From a virus, in the IMG/VR virus record IMGVR_UViG_3300020477_000078, positions 1 to 34,376 of that record: DNA of 34,376 nt. One strand, 5' to 3'. How positions within the stretch are numbered: the first letter of the stretch is position 1; every line of letters begins with the position of its first letter. Made by a program: the position numbers and the translations under genes. The notes under the pieces are model-generated. The model was not told the DNA's origin and made no database searches. It saw nothing but the letters and a program-made list of their open reading frames with translations. Positions 1,135 to 28,921 of this stretch are shown here, in pieces.

Positions 1135-1817
1135 TATGCCGCCTCCGCGACTGCTGATGCTTTCCGCTTCGCCGCGCCATGTGCGGGAAAGCCGACAATC
1201 GACTTGCGGTCGCGCCGCTGGCAAAGCTGGCAAGTCGCGCAAGATACGTCAGCGCGATAAGTCGCGGGACATGTCACGACGTTGCGCCCGCCTGGCGTGC
1301 TGGTGTTGCGCTTGTCGTGATCGGCGGGAAGAACGACGACGACTGGCGCAATATCTAGGTCGGCTAATTCGTCGGCGTGGTCGAGATTGTTTGCCGATAA
1401 ATTAACTGTGAAGCCGTCGCGGTTCGCGGCTTCGATAACGGCGGCATTCGTTGGGCCGCGCTTCGCGTCATAGTGTGTATAAGTGAAACCGCGCTTGCCT
1501 TTATTAGCGGCCATCAGTTTTGACATTGCGACGATATCGATATGAACGCCGTCGCCCGGTAAATCGCCCGCCTGGTTATGACGCCAGAATTGACCGTCTG
1601 GCAGATCGGCGACTTGTTCGCAAAACGTGTCCCAATCGCCTCCGGCTTCCCCGGCGTCGACCTTGTTCCAGAATAGCGCCAGCGGGCCGAGTGCGGCATA
1701 ACAGCCATTATCTCGAAATGGGCAATCAGTCGGGCAAGAATTGCGGCTTGTGGTGCTGACCGGCACCGGGCCGACTTTCTTGTTGCGTGATTTTAGCGTT
1801 AAATGTGCGGTAGTCAT
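1134..1817 (-). CDS. Cys-rich phage protein, probable metal/Fe-S binder (DUF7227-like)
   Basis: A 227-aa protein that heads the minus-strand operon. Two cysteine clusters are clear: C28-x3-C32-x6-C39 near the N-terminus (SCPTDCPFRDNGCYA) and C183, C193, C196, C199 near the C-terminus (SCATCQLCQ). The layout suggests bound zinc or an iron-sulfur cluster. The opening, the GPLALFW stretch and the terminal GFPAHG motif match a phage/prophage family that I recall as DUF7227, whose role is unknown to me. An AGGGG sequence about 10 nt upstream is the likely ribosome binding site. The promoter is at 1886-1916. It might be a redox or nucleic-acid-modifying enzyme, possibly linked to the radical SAM gene at 31528, but this is inference. 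Confidence 0.75.
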   Translation of the reverse strand: MTTAHLTLKSRNKKVGPVPVSTTSRNSCPTDCPFRDNGCYAALGPLALFWNKVDAGEAGGDWDTFCEQVADLPDGQFWRHNQAGDLPGDGVHIDIVAMSKLMAANKGKRGFTYTHYDAKRGPTNAAVIEAANRDGFTVNLSANNLDHADELADLDIAPVVVVLPADHDKRNTSTPGGRNVVTCPATYRADVSCATCQLCQRRDRKSIVGFPAHGAAKRKASAVAEAA

Positions 1818-1885
1818 GACGGAAGCCCCTTTCGCTTCTGTTGTGATTAGCGCCCGGCGACGTTGCCGCGTTGTCGGGCGTGTCT

Positions 1886-4897: not shown

Positions 4898-5119
4898 ATG
4901 TGTGTTTTTAGTAGTCCACCCAGCCCCCCGCCCCCACCTCCGCCACCTCCCCCTCCTCCTCCACCTCCCACGCGGGATGATCCGGAAGTAAACGCGGCAG
5001 CGGAAGCAGCGCGTCGTCGTCGTCGGTTAGCGCGCGGCCGTGCGTCAACGTTGTTGACCGGCGGTCAGGGTGTGACGGAACCGGCAAACGTTGGTCAAAA
5101 AACACTGCTAGGTCAGTAG
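4898..5119 (+). CDS. Polyproline small virion-module protein
   Basis: A 73-aa protein with an N-terminal MCVFSSP leader, an unbroken tract of about 16 prolines, then an acidic DDPEV turn, an Arg-rich helix (RRRRRLARGR) and the closing motif STLLTGGQGV...GQKTLLG. Small proteins of this type lie upstream of the connector gene in many T7-like podoviruses. The C-terminal TGG...KTLLG motif is characteristic. The proline tract would form a polyproline II rod and could stall ribosomes that lack EF-P. Function unknown, probably a minor virion or assembly component. Confidence 0.75.
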   Translation: MCVFSSPPSPPPPPPPPPPPPPPPTRDDPEVNAAAEAARRRRRLARGRASTLLTGGQGVTEPANVGQKTLLGQ

Positions 5120-5273: not shown

Positions 5274-5494
5274 TGTGTACGCCAGCGGCGTATCAACAGA
5301 TTAGCGGCGGTTCTATTCAAAGTGCAGGTAAAAAGACGCCGCAAACTTCTTTAGGCGCGCGTCTTGATAAAGCGCAGCGTTCAGCCATGTCCACTTCTGG
5401 TGGCGGTACATATCAAGGTCGAACAGTAATGCAAGGCGTTCCACGCAACACAGATGTCGGCGCTTTGCGGCGCACGACAATGTTGGGGGTTTAA
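5273..5494 (+). CDS. Small protein upstream of the portal, unknown function
   Basis: A 73-aa Gly/Ser/Thr-rich protein. It starts on the last base of the preceding stop codon and ends on the first base of the portal ATG, so all three genes are coupled. The C-terminus DVGALRRTTMLGV resembles the terminal KTLLG motif of the polyproline protein upstream, so the two may dock to the same partner. No enzymatic motif. Confidence 0.7.
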   Translation: MCTPAAYQQISGGSIQSAGKKTPQTSLGARLDKAQRSAMSTSGGGTYQGRTVMQGVPRNTDVGALRRTTMLGV

Positions 5495-7107
5495 TGAATT
5501 TTAAAGATACGGACGCAATTTTTAAGCGCTATGAGCGCATGAAAAATATGCGTGGAACATGGGAACAGCACTGGGAAGAGATAGCCGAGCGGGTGCTGCC
5601 CCGGTCAGCAGAGTTTACCGGTGACCGGACGACTGGCGATAAGCGGACTCAGAAAGTGTTCGATGCTACTTCGGGCCTTGCATTGGAGCGTTTTGCCGCT
5701 GCCGTCGAAAGTTTGCTAACTCCGCGCGGCGCAAAGTGGCATACGTTGCGCGCGAGCGATATTGAGTTAAACCAGGTTCCGGAAGTGGCTGGCTGGTTTG
5801 ATGCGGTTGAAAATATTCTTTTTCATTATCGTTATGCGCCGCGTTCTAACTTTTCTTCGCAAATGCATGAAAGTTATATGTCGCTTGGCGCGTTTGGTAC
5901 GGGCGGTATTTATGTCGATGAGATGGCGGCAGAGGGGTTTCGCTATCGTTCTGTGCATCTTGCCGATATGTTTATTGCCGAAAATCAACACGGTATTATT
6001 GATACTGTTTATCGAAGAATAAATTGTTCTGCGCGTCAGGCGGTAATGATGTTCCCTGACGGCAACTTCTCAAAGGAGTTGACTGACAAAGCAGACGACA
6101 ATCCTGATGAACGTGTTGACCTTGTTCACGTTGTCGCTCCACGCGGCGACCGCGATGCATCTAAGCGCAACCGTGTTAATATGGAATTTGGTAGCGGGTA
6201 CTACGAGGTAAAGACAAAGTCGCTGATTCAAGAAGGCGGATTTACAAACTTTCCATACATTATAAGTAGGTACGTTACCACTTCTCGAGAAGTGTACGGC
6301 CGCTCGCCAGCCATGCTGGTATTGCCAGACATTAAAATGTTAAACCAGATGTCTCGCGTTACGATCCGCGCGGGTGAGAAGGTTGTCGATCCGCCCCTGT
6401 TGATTGCGGACGACGGCGTCATCCTGCCGGTCAACACGCGTGCGGGCGGTGCGACGTTTGCACGATTGGACGGACGGCAGCAGCCGCCAATCCAGCCGCT
6501 GAACACGGGCGGTCGTCCTGACATTGGCGAGGAGATGATGGAGCGGCGGCGTCGCACGATCAACGACGCGTTCCTTGTTACGCTGTTCCAGATACTGGTC
6601 GACAGTCCACAAATGACTGCGACGGAAGTGTTGCAGCGCGCCCAGGAAAAGGGAGCATTGTTAGCGCCTACGGTCGGTCGCCAACAGTCTGAAATGCTTG
6701 GGCCGCTGATTGAACGTGAGATTACGATCCTTGCTGACCAGGGACTGCTGCCGCCTGTACCGGAGGTGCTTGAAGAAGCGGAGTACAAGATTGAGTACGT
6801 TAGTCCGTTGTCCCGCGCAATGAAGAGTGAAGAGGGCGTGGGCATTTTGCGGACGCTGGAAATGGTGCAGCCAATTGCCGCTGTCGATCCTAGTGTCATG
6901 GATAACTTTGACTTTGATGAGATTACGCGTGTGTTGGCTGATGTAAACGGCGTACCGCAGCGCATTCTAAAGGGTGACGAAGATATACAAACTGCACGGC
7001 AAGCGCGTGCTCAACAGCAACAAATGCAGCAAATGTTAAATGCTGCTCCGCAAGCGGCTGATGCGGCATTGAAGGTAAGCCAGATAAGCCAGGCTGCTCA
7101 AAGGTGA
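5494..7107 (+). CDS. Portal / head-tail connector protein (T7 gp8-like)
   Basis: A 537-aa protein of the podoviral head-tail connector family. It begins with the helical segment FKRYERMKNMRGTWEQHWEE followed by the conserved AERVLPR and RTQKVFDATSGLALERFAA blocks and LTPRGAKWHTL. The centre contains the connector-type YGRSPAM motif and the C-terminus is Gln/Ala-rich and helical (ARQARAQQQQMQQML). It forms the dodecameric channel through which TerL packages DNA. Length is typical for T7-like portals. Confidence 0.93.
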   Translation: MNFKDTDAIFKRYERMKNMRGTWEQHWEEIAERVLPRSAEFTGDRTTGDKRTQKVFDATSGLALERFAAAVESLLTPRGAKWHTLRASDIELNQVPEVAGWFDAVENILFHYRYAPRSNFSSQMHESYMSLGAFGTGGIYVDEMAAEGFRYRSVHLADMFIAENQHGIIDTVYRRINCSARQAVMMFPDGNFSKELTDKADDNPDERVDLVHVVAPRGDRDASKRNRVNMEFGSGYYEVKTKSLIQEGGFTNFPYIISRYVTTSREVYGRSPAMLVLPDIKMLNQMSRVTIRAGEKVVDPPLLIADDGVILPVNTRAGGATFARLDGRQQPPIQPLNTGGRPDIGEEMMERRRRTINDAFLVTLFQILVDSPQMTATEVLQRAQEKGALLAPTVGRQQSEMLGPLIEREITILADQGLLPPVPEVLEEAEYKIEYVSPLSRAMKSEEGVGILRTLEMVQPIAAVDPSVMDNFDFDEITRVLADVNGVPQRILKGDEDIQTARQARAQQQQMQQMLNAAPQAADAALKVSQISQAAQR

Positions 7108-7346
7108 CAAGTCAAAAACAAATAATTGAAGCCTATCGTCATGTGTTTATGACAGTGCCGGAAGGTCAAATTGTTTTGCGAGATATGATGAAAGCCTCTG
7201 GCCTGTTTACGGTCACGGGCGTTCGCAACCCCGAAGAGGTTCAGCATCTGGAGGGAACGCGCGACATGGTACGTCGCATCATTTCGTTCCTTGGTTTAGA
7301 TGACGAACAGGTAATGAAAATTGGAATAGGAGTTATTGATGAGTGA
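7104..7346 (+). CDS. Bbp19-like structural protein
   Basis: An 80-aa protein with a GTG start overlapping the portal stop (GTGA). It has the helix pattern and ..RNPEEVQHLEGTRDMVRRI.. block typical of the small Bbp19-type phage proteins found right after the portal in BPP-1-like podoviruses. The hydrophobic end precedes an 8-nt overlap with the scaffold gene. It is probably an assembly or structural factor of the head. Confidence 0.75.
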   Translation: MTSQKQIIEAYRHVFMTVPEGQIVLRDMMKASGLFTVTGVRNPEEVQHLEGTRDMVRRIISFLGLDDEQVMKIGIGVIDE

Positions 7347-8190
7347 GGAAGGGTCCGTTATTACGGGTAACCCTGTTGAACAGGGCGATGAAAATACTGA
7401 TTCAAGTGCGTTAGCTTCGGAACAAACAAGCGAGTTAACGAAGTCGGAATGGATAAGTGATGAGTACCGCCAGTTTGTTGATAACAAGGGTTGGAAAAAT
7501 GCAGACGACGCTTTGAAGTCGTATGTCAATCTTGAAAAACAAATTGGGCAAGATCGTATTGCTTTACCAAGCGACGGCGACGATGTAGCAAACTGGGAAG
7601 GATGGCAACGGCTAGGTACGCCGGAAACCGCAGATGGTTATGAGTTAAATGTTCCCGAAGGGTATCAAGATTATTCGTCTGAATTGTCTGATTGGTTTCG
7701 TCAGGAAGCACACACGGCAAAAGTGCCAGCACATATGGCACAGCGGCTTCATGATGCGTATGTGCAGAGAATGATGGACAGTCAGTCCAACGCAGTTCTT
7801 GACCAGCAACGTGAGCTTGAAGATTGGAAGAACGAGATTAAAAAAGAATACGGTACAGCTTACGACGAAAAAGTTGGTATGGCTCGTCGGGCTGTTCGCG
7901 CTTTTGGTTCTGAAGAATTGTCTAATCTTTTAGACAATTCTGGATTGGGTAGTCACCCAGAAATGATTCGAGCATTTGCTAAAATTGGTGCAGAGTTAAG
8001 CACTGGACAACAGTTTAAAGACGCGGAAGAAGCTGGGTCATTTGGAATGACTCCAGAAGACGCCCGTGGAGAAATTGCACGCATCCGGAGTCATTCCGGG
8101 TTAATGGATAAAAGCGACCCAGAGCATCGCGTTCTAAACGAACGTCTTACTCAATTGTATGGTGTTGCTTATCCGGATGCCGCCGCATAG
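7339..8190 (+). CDS. Capsid assembly scaffolding protein
   Basis: A 283-aa acidic, helical protein placed between portal and major capsid genes. The Glu/Ser-rich N-terminus is followed by a middle domain (PSDGDDVANWEGWQRLG) and a coiled-coil-like stretch (QQRELEDWKNEIKKEYG), then a C-terminal helix that would bind coat subunits. I chose the ATG at 7339 over an in-frame TTG one codon earlier because AGGAG at 7328-7332 is 6 nt upstream. It templates prohead formation and leaves before maturation. Confidence 0.85.
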   Translation: MSEEGSVITGNPVEQGDENTDSSALASEQTSELTKSEWISDEYRQFVDNKGWKNADDALKSYVNLEKQIGQDRIALPSDGDDVANWEGWQRLGTPETADGYELNVPEGYQDYSSELSDWFRQEAHTAKVPAHMAQRLHDAYVQRMMDSQSNAVLDQQRELEDWKNEIKKEYGTAYDEKVGMARRAVRAFGSEELSNLLDNSGLGSHPEMIRAFAKIGAELSTGQQFKDAEEAGSFGMTPEDARGEIARIRSHSGLMDKSDPEHRVLNERLTQLYGVAYPDAAA

Positions 8191-8303: not shown

Positions 8304-9447
8304 ATGTCTGTGCAAATCACTACGGCGTTTGTCGAGCAGTATAAGGGAAATGTCGAGCATCTTGTTCAACAAAAAGGTTCTCGTTTGCGTGATTCGGTTC
8401 GTTTTGAAACGGTCACCGGCAAAAACGCTTTTTTTGAGCAGCTAGGCACAACTTCTGCTTCAAAACGCACGAGTCGTCATAGCGACACCCCAAGGCTAGA
8501 CGTACCCCACGCGCGGCGTCGGGTAAGTCTTGTCGATTTTGATTGGGCTGATTTGATTGATCGTGAAGACCAAGTTCGCATGTTGATCGATCCGGCTGGC
8601 CCATATGCCGAGAGTGCAGCGTTTGCTCTTGGTAGAGCAATGGACGATGAAATCATTTCTGCTGCTGATGGCACTGCCTTCACTGGCGTTGATGGTTCAA
8701 CGTCAACTGCGTTTGACACCAGCAACATTGTTGATGTTCAAGTCGGAATTAGCCCTGCTGCTGACACGGGGCTTAATGTGGGCAAACTCCGTGCCGCCAA
8801 GGAGATCCTTGACGCTTCGGATATTGATCCAGAAATTGATCGTTATTGCGTTGTTAACGCCAAGCAGCTTAAAAACCTGTTGGCCGAAACAGAAGTAACT
8901 TCGAGCGATTTCAACAGCGTCAAAGCGTTAACACACTAGCGCCCCAGCGTGGTGACACGTTGGTAAACTCTCTGTGAATTGCTGGAAAATCCTAACGTAA
9001 AGTCGAGGACAATCAGCAGCCAAGCCCCAAACGGGGAAGGTTCAACGACCATCCTTTTAGGAGTACACCGCAAGCGCGGTGGAAGCGCAGAGCATCTTAA
9101 TAAGATGAAGATATGGTCTGAACTTACGGGAAACCGTAAGCGGGTGAAAACCGGGGCAAACGGTAGCGCGTTTGTTTGAACATAATGTAGTGCAAGGCGA
9201 AGTAGACACCTTCTTAGGTTTTAACTTCATCCGGACGCAGCGCATTGGCACCGATTCAAATGCAGACGATAAGGTTCTGTTTTATGCCAAGCCAGGCATT
9301 GTTCTTGCCGTTGGTGCAGAACCGCAAGTTCGCATATCGGAGCGCGACGATAAAAATTATGCAACACAAGTGTTTGCATCAATGTCTATCGGAGCAACTC
9401 GTATGCAAGAAGAGCTTGTCGGCTTCATTGAATGCGACCCGAGCTAG
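8304..9447 (+). CDS. Major capsid protein, interrupted by a group I intron (join 8304-8928, 9188-9447)
   Basis: The coat protein is split. Exon 1 (8304-8928) gives residues 1-208 plus the first base of codon 209. Exon 2 (9188-9447) gives the rest. Splicing creates the codon T|TA (Leu) and the continuous segment SVKAL|VQGEVDTFLGFNF, a block typical of phage coat proteins of this type; the total is 294 aa. Without splicing, translation stops at 8939 after 211 aa (ending LTH). Gene order (after scaffold, before the tail genes) and length fit a HK97-fold coat. The region 8979-9179 and an ATG at 9172 lie in the intron and are not separate genes. Confidence 0.92.
8929..9187 (+). ncRNA. Self-splicing group I intron (IA-like, ORF-less) in the capsid gene
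   Basis: A 259-nt intron with all core helices visible. P1 pairs GCGUU (8925-8929) with AGCGC (8938-8942), giving the required U8928-G8939 wobble at the 5' splice site. P2 is CCAGCGTG/CACGTTGG (8944-8951/8956-8963). P3 is CTCTGTG/CGCAGAG (8970-8976/9086-9092). P4 and P5 are around 8981-9020. P6 is CCCC/GGGG (9025-9036). P7 is GACCA/TGGTC (9047-9051/9114-9118). Then P7.1 (9052-9062), P7.2 CACCGC/GCGGTG (9066-9081), P8 CATCTT/AAGATG (9093-9107), and P9 with a GAAA tetraloop (9123-9140). The R (TTCAACGACCA) and S (AAGATATGGTC) consensus elements are present. The 3' end GAACATAATG, with terminal omega-G at 9187, matches T4 td-type introns. The intron contains no endonuclease ORF. Confidence 0.95.
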
Positions 9448-9964: not shown

Positions 9965-9968
9965 CGGT

Positions 9969-9997
9969 AAGGGGGGCTTCGGCCCCCCTTTCCTTTT
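9969..9997 (+). terminator. Strong Rho-independent terminator after the head genes
   Basis: The stem AAGGGGGGC / GCCCCCCTT with a TTCG tetraloop (9969-9990) is followed by a T-rich tail (TCCTTTT). It separates the head block from the tail genes. Transcription read-through or an antiterminator is then needed for the downstream tail genes, unless another promoter exists that I cannot see. Confidence 0.9.
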
Positions 9998-10006
9998 GAG
10001 GTTAGA

Positions 10007-10564
10007 ATGATAACAAACACGCTTGTAAGCATTAGTAATCGTGCGCTTACGTTTCTTGGCGCGCAGCCAATTACGTCGCTTGAAGACGACACTAAGGAAG
10101 CGCGCTCGTGTAATCGTATGATTGCACAATCGCGTGACAGCGTGCTTCGCAGCCATGCGTGGAATTTTGCAGTTAAACGCGCTTCTCTTGCAGCGAACAC
10201 AACAGCACCGTTATTTGAATACGCAAATGCATTTGATTGGCCCGCTGATTGTTTAAGAATTATTGAAATTAACACGCTTGAAGAATGGAATGTCGAGGGG
10301 CGTCAAATTGTAAGCGACGCAGCCGCTCCATTGGAAATTGTTTACATTAGTCAGGTAACAGACCCAACAATTTTTGATGTGTTGTTTGTTGAGGTTTTAG
10401 CTTTGCGTCTTGCGGCAGATATCGCTTACGAAATAACTGCAAGTCAAACTATTTTGTCAAATATGGAAGAATTATACCGTCGAAAAATTGCTGGCGCTCG
10501 CGTCATTGACGCTCAAGAGGCGCAACCTGTCGATGAAGTAGACTTTTTGGAATCTAGAATTTAG
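10007..10564 (+). CDS. Tail tubular protein A / adaptor (T7 gp11-like)
   Basis: A 185-aa protein matching the gp11-like adaptor family: the N-terminal block SISNRALTFLGAQPITSLED and the helical C-terminal EELYRRKIAGARVIDAQEAQ are typical. In podoviruses it forms the dodecameric ring below the portal. It lies immediately before the nozzle gene, as expected. Length is typical (T7 gp11 is 196 aa). Confidence 0.9.
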   Translation: MITNTLVSISNRALTFLGAQPITSLEDDTKEARSCNRMIAQSRDSVLRSHAWNFAVKRASLAANTTAPLFEYANAFDWPADCLRIIEINTLEEWNVEGRQIVSDAAAPLEIVYISQVTDPTIFDVLFVEVLALRLAADIAYEITASQTILSNMEELYRRKIAGARVIDAQEAQPVDEVDFLESRI

Positions 10565-23973: not shown

Positions 23974-24407
23974 TTAAAGAATTACAAAGTGAATTGGAAG
24001 CTGACGAAGGGTGCAAATACCAAATTTATTTAGACCACTTGGGATACCCTACAGCCGGAATTGGACATCTGATTACTGAAAAAGATGACGAATTTGGCGC
24101 TCCGGTCGATACTCCAATTTCTCGCAAAAGGATTGACGAGTGGTTTAAACAGGACATTGGATATTGCTTAGACGATTGCCGTGTAATTTTTGCAGATTGG
24201 GACGAGCTTCCCCAAGAAGTGCAAAAAATTACTGCAAACATGGCGTTTAATTTAGGCCGGGTGCGATTGTCCAAATTTTCTAAATTTATCGCCGCTGTAA
24301 ATGCAGGGGAATGGCTTACCGCCGCTTCCGAAATGAACGATAGTCAGTGGCGTAGGCAAGTGCCAAACCGCGCACAGCGGCTAATCAAACGTATGCGGTC
24401 AGCTTGA
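23970..24407 (+). CDS. Endolysin, T4-type lysozyme (GH24)
   Basis: A 145-aa muramidase that cleaves the peptidoglycan backbone. The catalytic triad has T4-lysozyme spacing: E13 (EADEG), D22 (YLDHLG) and T28 (PTAGIGH). The C-terminal helices with NMAFNLG and the WRRQVPNRAQRLIKR basic end complete the fold. There is no signal peptide, so it needs a holin for release. The GTG start at 23970 overlaps the preceding stop (GTGA). Confidence 0.93.
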   Translation: MIKELQSELEADEGCKYQIYLDHLGYPTAGIGHLITEKDDEFGAPVDTPISRKRIDEWFKQDIGYCLDDCRVIFADWDELPQEVQKITANMAFNLGRVRLSKFSKFIAAVNAGEWLTAASEMNDSQWRRQVPNRAQRLIKRMRSA

Positions 24408-24808
24408 GCACTCAAATTGGTCGAGTCGGTGACCGTCTTGTTGCATCGGTTCTTGAAAGTTTCGGCGCAAAAACCGCCATTGCAAACACTGATGGTTTTG
24501 ATTTGATTGTCTACTATGACCAAAGCTGGTTTCGCGTTGAGTGCAAAGCTACTGGTCAAACCGAATCAAACGGAAAAGTGTATGCATTTAATCCGTCAAC
24601 CGGAAGCAAAAACAAAACGACAATCACTAATAAACACTGTGACATTGTCGGCTTTGCTGCACTGGATCTAAGGCGTGTTTTATTTCTTCCAGCATTAGCT
24701 GTCACAAGTCCGACAAAGCGGTTTTCGCCTAAAAAATTTACACCACTAAACGAATTCAAAACCTGGATCGAAGCAGTTGAGCGAGTGAAAAATGATACCA
24801 TTAATTAG
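24404..24808 (+). CDS. PD-(D/E)XK nuclease, possibly group I intron homing-type
   Basis: A 134-aa protein with a TTG start overlapping the lysozyme stop. The nuclease core is visible: GDRLVASVLESFGA, then D33 (GFDLIVYY) and E46-C-K48 (RVECKAT), the D...ExK triad of PD-(D/E)XK enzymes, and a later strand FAALDLRRVLFLP. The general pattern resembles both Holliday junction resolvase-type nucleases and the PDDEXK_5 family that includes the I-Ssp6803I homing enzyme. Its placement between the lysozyme and the 3TM holin is unusual and may mean a freestanding mobile gene. Confidence 0.7.
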   Translation: MSTQIGRVGDRLVASVLESFGAKTAIANTDGFDLIVYYDQSWFRVECKATGQTESNGKVYAFNPSTGSKNKTTITNKHCDIVGFAALDLRRVLFLPALAVTSPTKRFSPKKFTPLNEFKTWIEAVERVKNDTIN

Positions 24809-25193: not shown

Positions 25194-25453
25194 ACCAGCC
25201 ACAAAACTGGCGCGGTACACGTTCAGCACCTGGGTCAACTATCACAAGTTTTCTAACCATTATTGCACTTGCCCTGGTGCTGTTTTTGTTCGCTGGATGT
25301 GTCCATGTTGCAATGCTTGGAACAATGACAAATATGGCACAGCTTCACCAAATGAACGAATTAAAACGTCGCGTTGAACTTCAAGAAGCTGCGCCTAAAA
25401 TATCATCCAAAACATCACCGTCTGACATGGCACTTGACCGCTCCTCAAAGTAA
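25190..25453 (+). CDS. Small membrane or lipoprotein at the end of the lysis region
   Basis: An 87-aa protein, GTG start overlapping the holin stop. A hydrophobic helix (about residues 18-42) ends in FLFAGC, which fits a lipobox. A coiled-coil-like helix (HQMNELKRRVELQEA) follows. This may be the outer-membrane spanin component or a simple membrane protein. Its last 73 nt run convergently over the integrase gene, an unusual overlap. Function uncertain. Confidence 0.5.
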   Translation: MNQPQNWRGTRSAPGSTITSFLTIIALALVLFLFAGCVHVAMLGTMTNMAQLHQMNELKRRVELQEAAPKISSKTSPSDMALDRSSK

Positions 25454-26550
25454 CGCGCGTATTGCCAATATGTATGATTGATATCGGCGTGACCCAGGAG
25501 CGCGGCCACCTCTGCGTCAGAAGTGCGGTGATCGAAAATCAAGCACGACGCGTAGAAGTGGCGCAAGTCATGCCATGTCATTTCATCGACCGGATAGTTT
25601 GTGCGCTGGATTGCAACAGACAATCCACGATTTCTCCAATTGTCGCCGTCTGCGATTTCGCCTACTGAATTCGGAAACACCAGATCGTGTTTACGCATAT
25701 GCAACGGCTGTGACATTTTCCATTCACGCATCATGGTCGCGACGGTTGTGGACATCTTGACACTGCGGCTGGATTTTTCCGTCTTCGGCGGTCCTATTGT
25801 GTCATCTGATTTGACAGCGCGACGAACCAATACACGCTGGTTGTCGAAGTCCACATGCTTCCATGTCAACGCACGTTGCTCGCCCTGGCGCAAGCCAGTG
25901 TAAGCGGAGAACATAATTTCCTTCTTGTACGTTTCGGGCGCTGCATTGATGACCGCAACCATTTCTGCCGGATGAATGCGGCGTAGCTCCGGTATCGGCC
26001 GATTACGCAAGCTGATCGTGATAGAACGGGCTGGATTAAATGCAATGTACTGACGATCCACACACCAGTCCAACAGTTGTTTAATTGTCACTAGCGTATT
26101 GCGCTGCGTCGTAAGCGCGAACCCGCGATTGCCATTTGCTTTGACACGCATCCATTCAATAAACGTGTCGCGGATATCGTCCGAAGTAAGGTGACCCACC
26201 TTCATCTTGTTGGTCGGACCCACGCGGTATTTAAGCGCACAGAACTGTTCGATGTGCCGCCGCTTATTACCCTCTTCCGATTTCTTCCCCTTGCCGATGT
26301 CACCGCGTGCCGCGCGTTGTGCTTGCAGCTTCATAAACTCCTCGCACGCTTGCAGTATCGTAGGGCTGTCGTTCGGCAGCAGTGCGCCGTCACGGCTGCT
26401 GCTGCGCTGCACCTCTTCCATACGACGTTTAAACTCGTCGTTTACTTCCTTCTCCGTACCGCAGAACAGTTGCTCCTTCGGCCCGGCATACGTCGTATTA
26501 CGCATGTCGATACGCCATTTGCCTGGGGCTAACTCAATTACTTTTGCCAT
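25381..26550 (-). CDS. int: Tyrosine recombinase (integrase)
   Basis: A 389-aa integrase. The N-terminal arm-binding and SAM-like domains (residues 1-190) precede the catalytic domain with the family residues: R in YTGLRQGE, K in PPKTEKSSR, H-x-x-R in WHDLRHFYA, H in LGHADINHT and the nucleophilic Y in YWQYARYF. It inserts the phage into a tRNA-fMet gene judged by the adjacent attP. I use the ATG at 26550; an in-frame GTG at 26574 is an alternative without a better ribosome site. The gene is read from the promoter at 26904-26932, after the 84-aa gene. Confidence 0.95.
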   Translation of the reverse strand: MAKVIELAPGKWRIDMRNTTYAGPKEQLFCGTEKEVNDEFKRRMEEVQRSSSRDGALLPNDSPTILQACEEFMKLQAQRAARGDIGKGKKSEEGNKRRHIEQFCALKYRVGPTNKMKVGHLTSDDIRDTFIEWMRVKANGNRGFALTTQRNTLVTIKQLLDWCVDRQYIAFNPARSITISLRNRPIPELRRIHPAEMVAVINAAPETYKKEIMFSAYTGLRQGEQRALTWKHVDFDNQRVLVRRAVKSDDTIGPPKTEKSSRSVKMSTTVATMMREWKMSQPLHMRKHDLVFPNSVGEIADGDNWRNRGLSVAIQRTNYPVDEMTWHDLRHFYASCLIFDHRTSDAEVAALLGHADINHTYWQYARYFEERSSAMSDGDVLDDILGAAS

Positions 26551-26605
26551 TTTCCGCACTCTCTCATTTGCCACAAGCCTGCGCGGCTAGTCGCTTTCGC
26601 TCTAA

Positions 26606-28395: not shown

Positions 28396-28626
28396 GTGCG
28401 GCTCGACCAATACCTACAAGCTAACGGACTTAACTGCGGACAGTTCGCCAAGCGGATCGGAGTAAGCCGAAACGCTGTCTACTATTGGTGCATCGGCGAG
28501 CGACGCCCATCGATCCAAAACACAATTGCAATTGAAGAAGCGACAGGCCGTCAGGTCACGGCTCGCGATTTTATGGCTGTCCTTGAGAGGAAATATGTCG
28601 AACAGAAACAAGGCGCGCGGCTATGA
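28396..28626 (+). CDS. Cro/C1-type HTH regulator
   Basis: A 76-aa XRE/Cro-type repressor with a GTG start. The helix-turn-helix is MRLDQYLQANGLNCGQFAKR (helix 1) with IGVSRNAVYYW (recognition region, about residues 21-31) and RRPSIQNTIAIEEATGRQVT. It is the first gene of the rightward early block and probably binds the dyads upstream. The gene ends over the start of the following nuclease gene (32-nt overlap). Confidence 0.85.
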   Translation: MRLDQYLQANGLNCGQFAKRIGVSRNAVYYWCIGERRPSIQNTIAIEEATGRQVTARDFMAVLERKYVEQKQGARL

Positions 28627-28921
28627 ACTGGAACGCGAAACAGTTCTTCACTGGCAAGGCCTCGGCCTTGAATGCAACCGCGTTTTCGGAAGCGGCGCGT
28701 TTAAAAACCAACTCGGCGACGACTATTCGGGCGACCTGCTGCTCGCGGGTTTCACCGTCGAATGCAAACGCAAAAAAAGCGGCTTCAAATTTTTATACGA
28801 CAGTTTGGCGCAGGACGACGCCGATATGCTGGTCGTTCGCGAAGACCGCAACGAGCGCCTTTATGTCATGCGCGAAGCGACTGTCGAGACGATCTTCCGG
28901 CAGTTGGGCCTTATAAAATGA
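28595..28921 (+). CDS. PD-(D/E)XK nuclease, Holliday-junction-resolvase-like
   Basis: A 108-aa nuclease. The N-terminal RGYELERETVLHWQGLGLEC helix is followed by the typical resolvase elements RVFGSGAF, GD-D-YSGD47 and VE56-C-K58, giving the D...ExK catalytic set. This resembles phage resolvase-type proteins that cut branched DNA, needed for packaging or recombination. The ATG at 28595 has GAGAGGA upstream at good spacing, and a longer frame that starts at 28526 is a shadow of the HTH gene. Confidence 0.82.
   Translation: MSNRNKARGYELERETVLHWQGLGLECNRVFGSGAFKNQLGDDYSGDLLLAGFTVECKRKKSGFKFLYDSLAQDDADMLVVREDRNERLYVMREATVETIFRQLGLIK

Follow-up and report, generated by a model that had tools for sequence, protein, structure and literature searches.

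A predicted td-like group I intron without an endonuclease in the major capsid protein gene of a phage related to HTVC010P

The 34,376-bp IMG/VR virus record IMGVR_UViG_3300020477_000078, analysed in its entirety and called the window hereafter, raises the question of how a phage obtains its major capsid protein (MCP) from a gene that is read as two open stretches. The head genes of the window resemble those of Pelagibacter phage HTVC010P and follow the order connector, assembly/protease-like gene, MCP and tail-tube genes. In the ORF listing, the unspliced capsid ORF (8304-8939) encodes 211 aa; a further open stretch, in a different frame, extends to 9447. The features of this region are as follows:

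5494-7107, portal/head-tail connector, in the head-gene region of the window
7336-8190, assembly/protease-like gene, in the head-gene region of the window
8304..8928, + strand, MCP exon 1, 208 complete codons and base 1 of codon 209 (PF19821 and PHROG 3437 profile positions 1-205; alignment with intron-less relatives)
8929..9187, + strand, predicted group I intron of 259 nt with no endonuclease ORF (RF00028, 94 bits; exact empty site in L002-L004)
8937..8939, + strand, in-frame TAG that would stop the unspliced product at 211 aa (ORF listing)
9187..9187, + strand, terminal guanosine (omega-G) at the 3' splice site (from the sequence; G is also last in the related introns spliced here)
9188..9447, + strand, MCP exon 2, including the stop (PF19821 profile positions 206-292, E 6.8e-19)

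When 8929-9187 is removed, the two stretches fuse to 294 aa. This joined protein matches PF19821 with an E value of 9.1e-91 (profile positions 1-292 of 293, covering residues 5 to 292) and also matches PHROG 3437, 'major head protein', end to end. On the PF19821 profile, the match of exon 1 by itself reaches position 205 and that of exon 2 starts at 206; therefore, no residues are lost or doubled at the junction. HTVC010P-type capsids, which have no intron, align unbroken with all 294 aa at about 57% identity; the capsid of HTVC010P itself, likewise of PF19821, shares 57.5% identity over 294 aa but differs in having no intron. In the viral contigs L002, L003 and L004, whose capsids are 88-92% identical at the amino acid level, the gene is uninterrupted and GCGT is joined straight to TAGT, so that this empty site equals the predicted ligated junction of the window.

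Screening of the whole record with Rfam gave a single group I match, to RF00028 at 8919-9140 (94 bits, gathering score 50 bits, E 3.6e-23, model positions 1-253, i.e. full length). The junctions read GCGT/TAACAC...CATAATG/TAGTGC. On sequence alone the boundary is ambiguous by one T. In group I introns exon 1 ends in U and the intron ends in G, and because these rules demand U and G at the two positions, the boundary is fixed as given here. The longest internal ORF (8979-9179, TTG start) is only 66 aa long and overlaps the catalytic core; the endonuclease that a self-mobile group I intron encodes was thus not found within the 259 nt. A first-pass annotation, made from the letters of the sequence, had called this segment an ORF-less group I intron with a td-type 3' end that splits the capsid gene. 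Its coordinates and junction proved exact on re-reading and by comparison with the empty site, the covariance-model search that it had proposed for 8900-9250 gave the match above, its joined 294-aa capsid is colinear with intron-free homologues across PF19821, and the lack of an ORF was borne out. As for the 3' end, the intron ends with GAACATAATG, and the td intron retrieved for comparison ends with CTGAACATAATG. By inspection against that one td intron, the features of subtype IA2 (td-like), namely the P7.1/P7.2 insertion and the P9 domain, are present. Judged by its sequence, then, 8929-9187 is an ORF-less, td-like group I intron of subtype IA in the PF19821 MCP gene of a phage related to HTVC010P.

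Two tests on an alignment of 22 distinct related introns addressed the RNA structure. RNAalifold predicted 64 pairs, 38 of them with two-sided compensatory changes. With the hand-drawn P1-P9.2 structure, in which P7 was entered as a pseudoknot, 96.0% of the cells were paired and two-sided changes occurred at 42 of 64 pairs (mean in shuffles, 29.2; none of 500 shuffles reached 42), and pairing fell to 33-47% once partners were slid by 1-3 columns. All the drawn pairs are canonical in the window, where every core helix is intact, and the single-sequence fold of the intron is 4.6 sd more stable than shuffles. The structure drawn in the first-pass annotation, P1 to P9 with P7.1/P7.2, is thus backed by covariation. 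Its elements are:

8925..8942, + strand, P1, in which exon GCGU and intron UA are paired with UAGCGC; U8928·G8939 marks the 5' splice site
8939-8942, + strand, internal guide GCGC within P1, pairing with the end of the 5' exon
8944..8963, + strand, P2 hairpin; two-sided changes at 8 of 8 pairs
8970..8976, + strand, 5' strand of P3, with its partner at 9086-9092; 100% of cells paired
8980..9018, + strand, P4 (8980-8984/9014-9018) and P5 (8990-8993/9006-9009); two-sided changes at 3 pairs of P4 and 3 pairs of P5
9020..9040, + strand, P6 and P6a; C-G in P6 is replaced by G-C in 6 of 22 introns
9047..9051, + strand, 5' strand of P7, with its partner at 9114-9118; neighbouring pairs covary
9054..9081, + strand, P7.1 and P7.2 hairpins; pairs kept across the 22 introns, same insertion in td
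9093..9107, + strand, P8 hairpin; 3 pairs with two-sided changes
9123..9140, + strand, P9 hairpin; 5 pairs with two-sided changes
9143..9175, + strand, P9.1 (9143-9152) and P9.2 (9156-9175); 2 and 5 pairs with two-sided changes, 78% of P9.2 cells paired

All 7 P3 pairs and 5 P7 pairs of the P3/P7 pseudoknot form in every one of the 22 introns, with covariation. One P7 pair, G9047-C9118, is G-C in all 22 introns; given what is established for group I introns, we take it to be the guanosine-binding pair. Likewise, all 22 introns have the U·G of the 5' splice site. Three positions farther out, the exon/guide pair is G-C in 11 introns and C-G in the other 11, and so exon and intron positions covary.

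That phage MCP genes can carry group I introns is already on record. The first-pass annotation left it undecided whether an intron at this site had been described; capsid introns are known elsewhere, in LittleE and crAss-like phages. Several known systems may be compared with the window. 1) The T4 td intron (group IA2) has the same 3' end GAACATAATG, the P7.1/P7.2 insertion and the U·G splice site, and the T4-type td intron that we inspected has similar P9 and P9.2 hairpins; td, however, interrupts the thymidylate synthase gene and encodes a homing endonuclease, whereas the window intron is ORF-less and lies in a capsid gene. 2) Mycobacteriophage LittleE has a probable group I intron in its MCP gene, also with U before the intron and G at its end, and splicing was proven by RT-PCR and protein sequence; that intron differs in its length of about 819 bp, its LAGLIDADG-type endonuclease and in phage, capsid and site (PMC3706429). 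A capsid intron of Tuc2009 is cited in the same paper (PMC3706429). 3) The tail-gene intron of mycobacteriophages BAKA and Optimus, spliced according to RT-PCR, is similarly small (265 bp) and free of endonuclease, but its host is a minor tail gene (PMC3706429). 4) In crAss-like phages, which are gut phages of Bacteroidetes, the MCP gene is interrupted by group I introns into up to five pieces, but these were detected via encoded endonuclease domains (PMC7886860). The MCP introns of mirusviruses are spliceosomal. In the literature on introns of HTVC010P-type and other pelagiphages, of which the coverage was partial and the evidence accordingly weak, neither this site nor this phage group nor this ORF-less capsid lineage was found to have been reported. 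The part deserving follow-up is the capsid-centred, ORF-less mobile lineage.

The insertion site of the window, at codon 209, is termed site B. Here, introns are often more similar than the surrounding exons. The 249-nt introns of L108 and L126 are 100% identical while their capsids are 54% identical, with exon DNA beyond 20 nt at 52-60% identity; likewise, the intron of the window is 87.6% identical to that of L130, with most of the exon flank at 60-70%. A contig chimera as the source of the L108/L126 identity was ruled out, as both exons of L108 are of the HTVC010P type and the two contigs come from different metagenomes. A 22-nt exon run beside the L108/L126 intron is also identical, yet 24 nt are also shared by L108 and L130 despite their different introns, so that co-conversion on the basis of this upstream identity was not upheld. 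When mapped on the capsid tree (125 rows), the presence of the site-B intron requires 8 parsimony changes, at least 4 of them forced by supported branches, and the capsids nearest to that of the window are without it. On the intron tree, grouping follows the insertion site; the PF19821 introns at codons 48, 65 and 72 join the introns of the phrog_1328 capsids, which are unrelated (99*), and not those of PF19821 site B. These sequence comparisons show that the lineage has moved horizontally between phages without an endonuclease of its own, and the identical introns in 54%-identical capsids, together with presence and absence mixed on the capsid tree, argue against simple vertical descent to the point of excluding it.

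Two scans of IMG/VR with different intron-core motifs gave 55 and 59 further loci, and of the loci submitted to cmscan nearly all passed the gathering score as group I introns. From the PHROG matches of spliced representatives and shared flanking exons, 54 of the 55 loci in the first set were placed in MCP genes, the sole non-capsid locus, L127, being a tail fibre; in the second set 53 of 59 were in MCP genes, with DNA polymerase, RNA polymerases and a head-tail adaptor among the others. Spliced representatives fell into PHROG MCP families 3437, 267/283, 1328, 1357, 14242 and 9953, and five MCP families that are unrelated to one another, plus one tail-fibre gene, have sister introns at about 12 non-homologous sites. 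Some capsid genes hold 2-4 introns (two in L105, L122, L125 and others). The SU10-like (phrog_1328) capsid gene of L102 contains four group I introns on the minus strand (148-378, 714-950, 1182-1406 and 1541-1763), and splicing in silico gave one MCP reading frame across all four. At 7 of the 12 non-homologous sites the 5' exon ends in the four bases CCGU, and at two more in GCGU, the chance of seven shared trinucleotides with random targets being about 1e-8 as a rough bound; the recurrent CCGU agrees with an intron lineage whose guide is retained and which inserts at matching targets.

In a third scan, for which a generic motif taken from other group I introns was used, 54 loci were obtained, about 31 of them in MCP genes (23 by PHROG-identified classes and 8 likely T7-type N-termini) of T7-like, SU10-like and T4-like phages, while the remaining loci include ribonucleotide reductases. 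The idea that the capsid preference is peculiar to the sublineage of the window was therefore dropped, since this motif, too, lies mostly in MCP genes. All locus counts are raw counts from one virus collection in which marine and near-duplicate contigs are numerous, without normalisation for gene abundance. Capsid genes are thus frequent hosts of group I introns in this collection, beyond the lineage of the window. From their kinship to pelagiphages and cyanopodoviruses the carriers would be mostly marine, and capsid genes look like hot spots of group I introns in marine phages. Phage group I introns have been said to favour genes of nucleotide and DNA metabolism, for reasons called mysterious (PMC12350094). 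The other group I introns picked up by the generic motif include those in capsid genes of the T7-like, cyanopodovirus type (L220 with 16 similar loci, L228, L237 and L244), in SU10-like MCPs (L223 and L234) and in a T4-like MCP (L261).

How an intron of this kind would move is a separate matter, for which the candidates are a trans-acting endonuclease, recombination of the ordinary kind during co-infection, and reverse splicing. Collaborative homing within a site, in which a free-standing homing endonuclease would act in trans as described for the psbA introns of cyanophages, is a real possibility that falls somewhat short of probable: it has a precedent among ORF-less phage introns (PMC3984707), and the recent transfer at one homologous site in L108 and L126 agrees with it, but no HNH_3, HNH or GIY-YIG gene was found in 21 carrier records, a weak negative as the records are mostly fragments. 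The window itself has two ORFs on the + strand with weak PD-(D/E)XK matches below the curated cut-offs, at 24404-24805 (PF11645, E 0.0018) and 28592-28918 (PF24608, E 4.5e-5). The former was considered as the trans homing enzyme and rejected, as it had no match in 20 carrier or relative records; that it is not common to the other carriers also counts, weakly given that most are fragments, against such homing.

It may also be asked whether the recurrence in capsid genes reflects only shared ancestry and sampling, i.e. vertical inheritance combined with the abundance of capsid genes in viromes. The introns do cluster by site on the tree, and many matches are near-duplicate contigs of one collection, but the L108/L126 introns and the patchy distribution on the capsid tree speak against this account, as does the prevalence of MCP hosts for the generic motif (uncorrected for gene abundance), and we regard it as rather unlikely. 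In another reading, also rather unlikely and offered tentatively, a compact endonuclease-free lineage specialised on MCP genes would spread through marine phages as RNA: the intron would reverse-splice into the abundant capsid mRNA at sites that fit a largely fixed internal guide (CCGU/GCGU), and the cDNA would then recombine. If this were true, capsid transcripts would be a hot spot for intron gain. Support for transposition by reverse splicing is circumstantial, the best coming from rDNA introns (PMC3984707).

Taken as a whole, a td-like group IA self-splicing capsid intron that is mobile without its own endonuclease is very probably the explanation of this locus. Splicing would start with guanosine bound in P7 attacking the U8928·G8939 splice site in P1; the freed U8928 would then attack after G9187, which would ligate the exons so that the 294-aa capsid is encoded again. 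The intron would persist as a mobile element with two modes of spread: i) within a site, from phage to phage by recombination at the homologous capsid position, and ii) by rare transposition to new capsid genes where the 5' exon matches the internal guide (mostly CCGU or GCGU).

Could the fold have been kept while splicing failed, leaving a truncated 211-aa capsid or a defective phage? The in-frame TAG ends 11 bases into the intron, and the support for splicing here is sequence-based. Nevertheless, such a dead intron is very unlikely: the core helices are intact with canonical pairs throughout in the window, the U·G and the terminal G are present, exon 2 is still an open frame conforming to PF19821, and the aligned intron-less capsids do not stop at 211 aa, the outcome that the first-pass annotation had named as contrary to its reading. 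That exon 2 is translated alone from the TTG at 9172, giving two capsid fragments, can be dismissed almost entirely, since although an ORF from this TTG to 9447 is present, the codon sits within P9.2 of the intron, the insert scores as a group I intron and shows covariation, and close relatives have a single uninterrupted gene.

The related ORF-less introns, found at about 12 sites that are unrelated and almost always in capsid genes, and with one identical copy in strongly diverged capsids, form a natural data set for studying the movement of introns that lack their own endonuclease and a possible preference for highly expressed transcripts. Annotators of viromes should note that capsid genes may be split by introns and miscalled as truncated.

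Other features of the window were also observed. A phage integrase gene (PF00589) at 25381-26574 on the minus strand suggests that this HTVC010P-like phage may be temperate. Downstream of the capsid genes, a strong GC hairpin followed by a T-rich stretch (9965-10017, + strand), with a weak match to Rfam BASRCII26, is probably an intrinsic terminator. At 1812-1884 (+ strand), a sub-threshold match to Rfam symR (42 bits against a cut-off of 61) comprises two hairpins and could be a terminator pair. An ORF with a proline run (PPPPPP...) derived from a poly-C tract, at 4898-5119 (+ strand), marks a possible slippage or assembly-sensitive spot.
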